Source: Neofusicoccum parvum (taxonomy: Eukaryota; Ascomycota; Dothideomycetes; Botryosphaeriales; Botryosphaeriaceae). From it: DNA of 64,000 bases. The stretch spans positions 434,001 to 498,000 of the forward strand of contig CP087209.1 in the NCBI GenBank assembly GCA_020912385.1, given 5' to 3'. The notes below the pieces were generated by a model, which saw only the letters and a program-made list of their open reading frames with translations, was not told the DNA's origin and did not search any database. Positions 53,808 to 56,900 of this stretch are shown in pieces. Position 1 is the first letter of the stretch, and each line of letters starts with the position of its first letter. The position numbers and the translations under genes are program-made.

Positions 53808-53954
53808 GGCACAGTGCCAGAGTGGTATGTTACTTCCTGCCTGCCGTCTCCGATCTTTCACTAACAGTCCCTAGGTTAATGGGTCAGACTTGAATGCAAC
53901 GCATTTGGTCATCTGATGGCTTCGGCCTCGCAAGTTCGAATCTTGTCTGTGTCG
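53808..53954 (+). tRNA. tRNA-Ser(UGA) with two introns, one spliceosomal-like in the D-loop
   Basis: Seen: acceptor strands GGCACAG (53808-53814) and CTGTGTC (53947-53953) pair over 7 bp with one G-U; discriminator G at 53954, usual for Ser. Box A-like TGCCAGAGTGGT is 53815-53826. T-arm GCAAG-TTCGAAT-CTTGT is 53930-53946. Anticodon stem TCAGA (53884-53888) pairs with TCTGA (53912-53916); anticodon TGA is 53891-53893. A 16-nt intron (53895-53910) lies at the canonical site after base 37. The variable arm is a GGC/GCC stem with a TTCG loop. In addition, 50 nt (53825-53874) interrupt the D-loop; removal restores stem CCA/TGG and loop GAGTGGTTAA. A T5 terminator follows. Spliced length is 81 nt. 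Confidence 0.9.
53825..53874 (+). other. 50-nt spliceosomal-type intron inside the tRNA D-loop
   Basis: Begins GTATGT, contains a CACTAAC branch region after a pyrimidine-rich stretch, and ends CCCTAG, 12 bases or so after the branch adenosine. Its length equals the commonest intron length in neighbouring protein genes (several at exactly 50 nt). Because of a repeated G the cut could shift by one base with the same product. Confidence 0.75.
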
Positions 53955-56900
53955 TGTTCTCTTTTTGTCCTCGTCAAGTCACCTCCCCGTCCAGCCTGGA
54001 CGGCGACTGCGTACACGGATGACTGTTGTTCTCTTTTGGCGTCATTGGCAAGCAGCGAGGTTGTTCATTCGTCGTGTGCTAAATGCTCAAGTTTAGCGCG
54101 GCGCAAAAATCACTCTACCATCGTACCATTTACAACTTCTTTCGCGAACTAACATCCAAGACCACAATTCACGTATATTCGTACAAGCTATGCGCGTCGA
54201 AGAGATCCCCTGCATCTCGTTAAAAGCTTTAAAGTTGCTCATCGAGTGCTGCTAATATCCAACGGCTATTACAACCAAACAAGGACGCATTTAGCCTTTT
54301 TTTTAAGCGCTCTCGCACGTCTACGTGGCATTTCATACTCTTGACCTGGGCTTCATATGACTATCATAAGATTCAGCCAATGCTACGAAGAGTGCCTTCC
54401 GGCCACGCTTCCCTCTGTGTTTTGTGGAATCAATTTCGCTTCACAAACGCTCGTCAACATTCCAGCCTGATACGTTGAACGTTCCCGTCCGTGCTTTCAA
54501 TGTTGCCTTCAGTGCGCTTGCCTACACCCCATCGTAAAATGCCGAAGTTTTTGGTATGGTATAGCCTGAGTGGTGAAGCCGCTGAAAGCTGGCCGGCCAT
54601 GCCGTACGGAATTCTCCCTAGGGTTTTGTTTCCAGTCTCCAGCACATTTCAGTGTATCTTCTCTGCTTTTCACCCCTTCACACGTGGACAAAAGCCGCCG
54701 TGAGCTGCACACTCTTAAGTCCTTTGTCTCTATTCGACAGCCGAGTATAAGACAGATTCCGAGCCACAATACCTAAAGGAAATCCCATCTCAAGAGTTGC
54801 TCATGCATTCATCTCGAATAATGGGACGTAATGGAGCTCGGATATTTGAAAGCTGCTGAGCTCACACCAACTTGAAGTAGGAGAACGTTATTGAAGCATT
54901 TGCTCTCTGGCCGAATCAGTTTATCAGTTGTTTTGTCACAGTATACCTGTGGCGTGAAGGCAGATGTTGGCCTTTTGGCAGGCTCCGGCAACACTGTTTT
55001 CCCAGTATGATACTCACCCCCAAATATGTGGTCCCGTTGCCTAGAACAGGCCGTGTAGTTGCTCCGGGGAAAGTGGTAAAAATTTGTGTGATACTAGGTG
55101 AGACCACCACATTTCGTCACACACAGGCACGATCGGCTGCAACAACAATGAGAACGTAGAATTTTATTTATAAGAGCGTTATTGAATGAAGCAAGGCAAT
55201 CAATGCAATATGCTGTAATGTTGTGTGCATTCTGGAGAAGTCCAAACGAGCTCTGTCATGATTCTGCTGGTCTTCATCCTCCTCTCAAACACAACTAACC
55301 TTACACTTGAAGAAAATTCAGCAAAAGAAACCCGTCAGTGCGGATTGCTGTATGAACTAGCAAATACCGGTGTTACCGTTTAGTTTTAGAGAACAGAATT
55401 GTGTCGGAGGAAGGATGTCCAATGAAATGGAAGGCAAATGTTGACTCTCAAAGTCTTGTCTGCGGAACCCACCATTCCGCAACTGATTAGCCTATCTAAT
55501 TAGGTATCTGCCCTGTTGCTGCTGCTTGAGGTTTTACATCCCACATACTACAATTCAGTTCCCTATTCGGCTGGAATGCTTGCTCCACAGGATTCGTTTA
55601 CCAATCCTGAGCCTCCGACCCAGGCGGAGAAGCACATCAGCCTTCTCTTGTCCAGAGACAACCATCTAGCAAACCGTATTCATCTTTTAATGAAATCAGT
55701 ATCCTCAAAGCCATTCTTGGAGACGTAGTCAAATTACTGAGTAGAATCAATCACTGCATAGTATATACTGCGGTGAGACAACCATCTACAGTGGACCGTC
55801 CTCGGAAAGCCAGGCATGACGGCTCAGATGAATATTCTCTATTCAGCGTTCAACGAGTGAGGGCATTGGTATCAGGGCGAGTGGGTGTCCCTGAGGAAGT
55901 ACCCCACGATGCCTCCACTGCACTGGTATGTCGAAACTTGCGCAGCACAGAGATCGGGAACACGGTCTCAATGAGCAAGCTGGTTCATATCATGTATATC
56001 AATCGTTTTCAACCCCATTGTTCAATGTCACTTGCGGTTGTAAGCGGAGGACATGTAGAAAGCTTCCCGATATCTGGCAAAAAGAGCAAACTCCAAGAGT
56101 AACCAGTGACATCCGTATGGCTGAAGGCCTTTCTTTGTACGAAGCTCCAAGAAGGAAGCAAAGAAAGAAAGAAAGGTCATAAAACAGCTTTCTCGGCAGT
56201 ATTTCCGTAGCCGATTAAAAAATATCAGTCTTTTCCCACTACCAAACTTCTAAAGAATAGAATGTACGGGAGTATGTACGCACCAAACTCAGGAAAGCTT
56301 TTACGAATGAAATCTTCTACTCCAAGCGGTAGTATGTAAAGTATCAGATAGATGAGAGAGTATCCATCCGTTGCCGCAGTGCCGGAATGATGCAGGGTCT
56401 TTATCAGAGTGAGGCTATACTCAGGGCGCCACTCACTATGCCGTTCGGACGTATTTAGTAATAGCTAATTTCCTGCTTATCTACATAGCAAGAAGTGAAG
56501 GTTGGGCAAGCAATTTAGCAAGTCGCTCGAGAAATTTTACTTGAAAATCAACTACCTGCTTCCGAAAAAAAGTTGAGTTTTGGATACTTTCCCTCCCACG
56601 AACTGTCGTGGAGTCACCCCCTCCTTCTCTCGGTAGATACTACGTAAACTGTTACCGTAGATCAGGCATCTTATCTATAGTCAAGTCAAGCATTTTATAC
56701 ATACCTGATGCCCATGAAAGTACGCACGTGTTGCAATAATCGCCGAATTGATCTCGTACAAAAGTCTTTTAGAAGGTCTGATCCAGCCAGTTATAACTCT
56801 TGTTAGTCGGAATTCCTTCCACCTTGCCGCCTGGGCCTGTTCAATTGCCGTCACCATGTCTGTTCTTCCACTCGCTCTACCAAATCTACTCGCCGCCTCT

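Follow-up and report, generated by a model that had tools for sequence, protein, structure and literature searches.

Probable U2-type spliceosomal introns in at least fifteen tRNA genes of Neofusicoccum parvum

In the textbook scheme, the introns of tRNAs belong to the Sen endonuclease and those of mRNAs to the spliceosome. The systems closest to the one described here are found in other non-coding RNAs of fungi. Fission-yeast U6 is an RNA polymerase III (Pol III) product carrying an mRNA-type intron and, in the accessible part of the source, the closeness of this intron to the catalytic nucleotides of U6 leads to the proposal that it arose by reverse splicing, while a title cited there reports impaired splicing of the U6 precursor in mutants of pre-mRNA splicing (PMC10484740). 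The introns of fungal U3 snoRNA genes have been judged to be normal spliceosomal ones, with some species mixing interrupted and intronless copies; according to the accessible portion of that study, 133 of 138 lie in the 5' half, nearly always in one 5' stem-loop, and their mean length is 92 nt (PMC5832005). Turning to tRNA genes themselves, the available sections of the tRNAscan-SE 2.0 paper limit those of eukaryotes to one intron (PMC8450103), a red alga is described as having three introns in one tRNA gene (accessible part of PMC9602550), and the accessible part of PMC6461891 holds nothing on spliceosomal introns in tRNA. Across the openly accessible literature, a body that leaves most subscription journals and all bioRxiv preprints outside, our searches brought to light no account of a tRNA gene with a spliceosomal intron, in agreement with the initial annotation of our locus, which was aware of no described case.

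The locus in question is a tRNA-Ser(UGA) gene within what we call the window, that is, the whole 64,000-nucleotide stretch analysed (C4:434001-498000 of a 44.0-Mb assembly in 18 contigs), and direct reading of its sequence divides it into three exons and two introns (Table 1). The 50-nt D-loop insert with its GTATGT, CACTAAC and TAG had already been pointed out, correctly, in the initial annotation; what had been overlooked is the second, canonical 16-nt intron at 37/38, the same site at which the Ser(CGA) paralogs have introns. The D-loop insert reads GTATGTTACTTCC...TTTCACTAACAGTCCCTAG and has four equivalent registers, one of which is GT..AG, and the exact insertion site is fixed because L002, an uninterrupted tRNA-Ser(CGA) paralog, begins with 27 nt that equal the joined exons. 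Excision was said to restore a tRNA-Ser, and so it does: ARAGORN reports no tRNA anywhere in the intact window and Rfam gives no match there at its gathering cut-off, tRNA included (below the cut-off, its tRNA model reaches 12.7 bits at 53865-53949), and removal of the D-loop insert leads ARAGORN to call tRNA-Ser(tga) with a 16-nt intron. The predicted joint is AGTG/GTTAATGG, the acceptor stem pairs at seven of seven positions, and the discriminator is G. The A and B boxes given in Table 1 are presumed from the box consensus.

Table 1. Parts of the tRNA-Ser(UGA) gene (window positions), the other interrupted tRNA genes, and further features on the contigs
Feature	Location	Strand	Remarks
tRNA-Ser(UGA), whole gene	53808-53954	+	three exons, two introns
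Exon 1	53808..53824	+	acceptor 5' strand, positions 8-9, D-stem 5' strand, D-loop up to G18; equals first 17 nt of L002
D-loop insert	53825..53874	+	50 nt, spliceosomal-type, between G18 and G19
Insert 5' site GTATGT	53825-53830	+	from sequence
Insert branch-like CACTAAC	53859-53865	+	from sequence
Insert 3' site TAG	53872-53874	+	from sequence; CTAG end
Exon 2	53875..53894	+	G19 through A37
Anticodon TGA	53891-53893	+	from sequence, paralog and ARAGORN
Canonical 37/38 intron	53895..53910	+	16 nt, TGCAACGCATTTGGTC; ARAGORN intron call once D-loop insert is excised; expected Sen endonuclease substrate
Exon 3	53911..53954	+	anticodon stem 3' strand, variable arm, T arm, acceptor 3' strand, discriminator G
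Presumed A box TGCCAGAGTGG	53815..53825	+	from sequence; final G is the insert's first base
Presumed B box AGTTCGAATCT	53933..53943	+	from sequence; uninterrupted
T5 run, candidate Pol III terminator	53962..53966	+	7 nt past the tRNA 3' end
Ser(AGA)	C3:2826941-2827073		insert 17/18
Ala(AGC)-1	C11, L082		insert 19/20
Ala(AGC)-2	C9, L221+L228		insert 57/58, T-loop
Ala(AGC)-3	C14, L222+L229		insert 57/58, T-loop
Phe-1	C10, L023		insert 30/31
Phe-2	C9, L215		insert 30/31
Phe-3	C3:2827498-2827668, L216		insert 30/31
Leu(CAG)-1	C5, L172		insert 25/26
Leu(CAG)-2	C17, L214		insert 25/26
Initiator Met-1	C13, L193		insert 24/25
Initiator Met-2	C2, L006		insert 24/25
Trp-1	C4, L218		insert 24/25
Trp-2	C1, L219		insert 24/25
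Asp	C4, L223+L227		insert 59/60
Decayed partial Thr(CGT), 3' half	C3:2801502-2801541, L194		inverted beside intact gene of same kind
Decayed partial Cys, 3' half	C6:1444719-1444755, L220		inverted beside intact gene of same kind
B-box-like pairs, 1060 bases apart	C1:4285698/4286758; C3:11180/12240; C3:1518677/1519737; C3:1912921/1913981; C4:3408836/3409896		probably a repeated element

The idea of a spliceosomal intron in this tRNA gene is not only supported but widened by the rest of the genome, where 14 more genes carry inserts of the same size and with the same signals. This brings the count to 15 interrupted genes among 79 distinct tRNA genes read, a proportion that is no rate, as families with matches were chased and the tRNA census is incomplete (70 unique ARAGORN genes, minus seven mis-called interrupted ones, plus L170, make 64 uninterrupted genes, to which the 15 are added). 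Eight isoacceptors are involved (Ser-UGA, Ser-AGA, Ala-AGC, Phe, Leu-CAG, initiator Met, Trp and Asp), and the inserts, numbered by us from their boundaries, fall at eight positions (17/18, 18/19, 19/20, 24/25, 25/26, 30/31, 57/58 and 59/60), which include the T-loop and never coincide with the canonical 37/38. Measured against uninterrupted paralogs the insertion is exact, Leu(CAG) being compared with Leu(AAG). The Ser(AGA) gene and Phe-3 are neighbours on the same strand of C3, with about 430 bp between them.

It matters how these genes were found, and for 13 of the 15 no splice signals were asked for, only tRNA sequence or structure: a tRNA covariance model gave Leu-1, Ser-AGA, iMet-1 and iMet-2, an ARAGORN mis-call gave Phe-1, and similarity to tRNA exons gave Leu-2, Phe-2, Phe-3, Ala-2, Ala-3, Trp-1, Trp-2 and Asp. 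The GT motif led to the other two, namely the window gene (through the initial annotation) and Ala-1 (through a pattern). Four of the 52 matches in the genome covariance search, in which 63 of 860 candidates were scored, are interrupted genes. None of the genes read has an insert outside 37/38 that lacks splice signals, though many of that kind would escape both ARAGORN and the covariance model.

The pattern TRGYNNARNNGGTRNGT has 96 matches, of which 89 were examined (the other seven are on C17 and C18); four have a B-box-like word downstream and one is a tRNA, Ala-1. Among the 24 matches to TRSYNNAGYGGTRHGT, the window gene included, 12 others were examined by eye and none is a tRNA, and the same is true of all four matches to TGGYNNARYYGGGTRHGT. 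A B-box pattern matches 282 times and its reversed control 334 times, so that its matches are largely chance (38 of the 100 listed places were examined). Finally, GTGGTATGT..CTAAC..AGGTTAA occurs twice in viral contigs, in coding-like sequence with no tRNA, and we put this down to chance as well.

What, then, do the inserts look like? All 15 are 50-65 nt long, 14 are GT-AG and one, in Ala-3, is GC-AG, each of these being the one reported among one to four equivalent registers per insert. The Pol III terminator TTTT occurs in none of them. The combination of GT or GC, a branch-like [CT]T[AG]A[CT] at a distance of 8-14 nt from the 3' end, and AG is present in 15/15 inserts against 0/39 of the genome's canonical 37/38 introns as ARAGORN places them, and GT..AG alone occurs in just one of the latter, an 18-nt intron of L178, an Asp gene mis-called by ARAGORN. 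Under a stricter rule (GTRNGY, YTRAY at 9-14 nt from the end, and AG), 12 of the 15 still qualify, the exceptions being Ala-2 (GTAAGA, distance 8), Ala-3 (GC-AG) and Phe-2 (GTTAGT). The local mRNA introns are a natural yardstick, and five of them, from two of the window's protein genes (a third is intronless), measure 50-61 nt with CTRAC near the end in four; this mapping used predicted proteins and admitted GT..AG introns only, so that it bears on length and branch motif but says nothing about the ends. The window genes themselves match Neofusicoccum parvum, with the Gaa1 and NADPH oxidase frames 100% identical to its proteins over 48% and 77% of the query (partial coverage because the query frames extend beyond the exons) and a glucanase 99% identical over 95%; NADPH oxidase is also 99% identical to that of Neofusicoccum ribis, and the proteins thus place the fungus at N. 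parvum or very close to it. Other kinds of intron fit less well. Self-splicing group I and II introns run to hundreds of nucleotides with a conserved ribozyme core, and the inserts are of 50-65 nt, with no Rfam match in the window at the gathering cut-off. An introner-like element is rejected for the seven of 15 inserts used as genome queries, each of which matched only itself at E<=1, so that none of these seven is a recent copy of another or of an element that they share.

Excision in silico gives a second and quite different view of the same loci. With the 15 loci intact, ARAGORN is correct for none: eight go unseen and seven (L023, L082, L172, L214, L215, L216 and L219) are given an odd intron and a wrong identity, Arg(gcg), Arg(tcg) or Gly(ccc), labels that in related genomes may conceal interrupted tRNA genes. 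With the inserts taken out, the expected isotype is returned for 14 of the 15. The remaining one, Asp, becomes tRNA-??? with the four-letter anticodon gtca, probably through a 37/38 intron that ARAGORN does not recognise; uninterrupted Asp L178 is likewise mis-called, as Leu(caa). Ala-1 after excision is called Ala with anticodon tgc, and its paralog L165, with the same exons, reads AGC. Predicted joints are GGAAGCG/CGCCGGGC for iMet-1 and iMet-2 and TTCG/ATTCC for Ala, and ARAGORN now reports a second intron, at 37/38, in 10 of the 15 genes. Canonical introns are in any case common in this genome (39 of 60 ARAGORN genes, the 60 being 63 minus three mis-called interrupted ones), and several of those in tRNA-Gly(GCC) reach 65-71 nt.

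We think it very probable, from sequence features, that the inserts are U2-type spliceosomal introns in Pol III-transcribed tRNA genes, at least 15 of them in this genome, and that they are removed by the spliceosome. That we are looking at an artefact of assembly or at coincidence is scarcely credible, given that the 15 loci are spread over 11 of 18 contigs with differing interiors and with boundaries fixed by a paralog, and that only 31 of 2,045,760 window segments (50-65 nt, both strands) fit the strict rule that 12 inserts satisfy, or about 1.5e-5 for each segment, a figure that has to be scaled by the number of registers. A more serious proposal likens them to the ectopic tRNA introns known from Cyanidioschyzon and from the Guillardia nucleomorph, with a relaxed Sen endonuclease doing the cutting, and it has real precedents: the red alga has ectopic introns in D, anticodon and T arms (accessible parts of PMC9602550 and PMC3978253), and many introns of the Guillardia nucleomorph form no defined bulge-helix-bulge (same part of PMC3978253). 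A full bulge-helix-bulge has no discriminating power here, since none of the 15 inserts forms one, yet only one of the 39 canonical introns does. Looser counts differ between the two classes, at least three of four central pairs (best of five registers) being found in 5/15 inserts versus 29/39 canonical introns, and an outer helix of at least two pairs in 7/15 versus 26/39, but structure makes no strong argument. The splice signals weigh more. Sen has no known need of GT, CTAAC or AG, and a Sen-type route is disfavoured because the enzyme would not maintain them; we consider it highly unlikely. The intron-tolerant endonuclease that the initial annotation entertained as an alternative fares no better, leaving those signals unexplained, even if the bulge-helix-bulge test does nothing to set it aside.

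One might also suppose that these are dead or dying copies, in which inserts entered surplus tRNA genes and are not removed. Six of the eight isoacceptors do have uninterrupted copies (Phe L016 and L217; iMet L015; Trp L154; Ala-AGC L165; Asp L178, L196 and L224; Ser-AGA L018-L020), single interrupted copies could therefore be little used, and two decayed partial tRNA copies, L194 and L220, are present in the genome. Against this, the exons of iMet-1 and iMet-2 are identical at 72 of 72 positions, with introns that align at 38 of 65 (shuffled sequences give a mean of 0.49 and a maximum of 0.58 in 200), and their six differences from uninterrupted iMet L015 amount to three compensated base pairs and nothing else. 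Seven within-family pairs of inserts agree at 4-5 of the 5 positions of the branch motif and at 4-6 of the 6 of the 5' site, with an interior identity of 0.41-0.66; in three of these pairs the interiors are no better than shuffled, and for this reason the shared ancestry of their introns rests on position. Splice signals retained in every insert and expected isotypes recovered in all genes except one point the same way. In addition, no uninterrupted copy of Ser(UGA) or Leu(CAG) was found among the best-scoring candidates in the genome. An intact Ser(UGA) elsewhere was the very observation that the initial annotation had named as evidence against itself, and a pattern search for further Ser(UGA) genes gave a single match, L041, which is not a tRNA. 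Three genes with 1679 codons between them contain 50 CTG and six TCA, which suggests a need for both tRNAs, although an inosine-34 tRNA-Ser could still read TCA and a UAG anticodon CTG. Taken together, we regard decay as a very unlikely account of these genes.

If the inserts are spliceosomal introns, the internal promoters of their hosts deserve some thought. Introns in the D-loop spare most of the A box, and in the window gene the displaced G is replaced by the intron's first G. The T-loop introns split the B box in all three cases, as in GGTTCG/GTAAG of Ala-2 and GGTTCG/GCAAG of Ala-3. In the three interrupted Ala genes, and in these three of three, the trailer between gene and T-run contains GGTTCAATTCC, and this includes Ala-1, whose internal B box is whole; the box is found in 0/12 other interrupted genes (some with trailers of 10-37 nt only), in 0/35 uninterrupted genes with a 60 nt trailer (uninterrupted Ala L165 is covered for 10 nt only) and not in the trailer of Asp, the third T-loop case. 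More fully, the Ala trailers (L082, L221+L228 and L222+L229) carry CTGGTTCAATTCCGG, with a perfect B box before the T-run. U6 genes provide the model for a promoter box outside the gene, and by that analogy the outside B box may carry Ala transcription. As for termination, 13 of the 15 genes have TTTT in the first 70 nt of the trailer, and for the remaining two the trailer is covered for 27 and 34 nt only. The tRNA-Phe genes L023, L215, L216 and L217 share a similar inverted repeat downstream (ACCAGTCTCAGACTGGT in L216), with no close T-run. Separately, B-box-like matches pairing GGTTCAATTCC with GGTTCRAACCC lie exactly 1060 bases apart in five places (Table 1).

How might such a gene be expressed? 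In the scheme that we favour, the spliceosome would recognise the primary transcript in the nucleus by its 5' splice site, its branch site and its 3' AG, and the intron would leave as a lariat. This removal would probably precede folding and end-trimming, with which it would have to compete; the precursor would then fold and have its ends trimmed, and, in the 10 genes for which ARAGORN gives a 37/38 intron, that intron would fall to the Sen endonuclease and tRNA ligase. We know of no tested case of a tRNA processed by the spliceosome. What carries our confidence is what can be read directly, namely exact insertion against paralogs, the splice signals, the size, a tRNA restored on excision, and signals kept while interiors diverged in multi-copy families; that Pol III transcribes the genes, that the spliceosome removes the inserts, that the steps follow this order and that the mature tRNA is used, we infer from these.

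We would go a little further, with a modest lean in favour rather than conviction, and suggest that the spliceosome is obligatory for tRNA maturation in this fungus. Ser(UGA) and Leu(CAG) would then come only from genes that need both spliceosome and Sen, most of the copies found for initiator Met (2/3), Phe (3/5), Trp (2/3) and Ala-AGC (3/4) would need the spliceosome too, and splicing capacity would set the capacity for decoding and initiation; the Ala(AGC) T-loop introns that break the B box would be tolerated thanks to the trailer box, as in U6-type promoters. If the spliceosomal reading is true, the spliceosome is able to act on short, folding Pol III transcripts, and many intron gains have occurred in hosts whose exon sequence is otherwise fixed, which would furnish a clean test of models of intron gain such as reverse splicing. 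It would also account for tRNA genes that are missed or mislabelled by annotation in such genomes.

How do these introns sit among their known relatives? Like fission-yeast U6, as the accessible part of its literature presents it, they would be spliceosomal introns in Pol III genes, but here the host is a tRNA, at least 15 genes and eight sites are involved, and a tRNA has no place in the spliceosome comparable to that of U6. U6 in this genome, for its part, gives three full-length matches over the cut-off, without a large insert, and one weak match of 45 nt. The fungal U3 genes, again from the part of the study that is accessible, offer the parallel of normal spliceosomal introns in a non-coding RNA gene and of interrupted and intronless copies side by side, whereas our hosts are tRNAs, with eight positions and lengths of 50-65 nt as against a mean of 92 nt. 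The introns of Cyanidioschyzon, the Guillardia nucleomorph and archaea resemble ours in lying in D, anticodon and T arms and in occurring more than once per gene, and differ in being described around the bulge-helix-bulge, with no splice-site or branch consensus mentioned in the accessible parts of these sources (PMC3978253, PMC8450103, PMC9602550). Nearest at hand, finally, are the canonical 37/38 introns, which also interrupt tRNA genes and co-occur with the inserts in 10 of the 15, and which differ from them in site, in sequence and in the expected enzymes, Sen and ligase, such that single tRNA genes of this fungus appear to hold one intron of each type.
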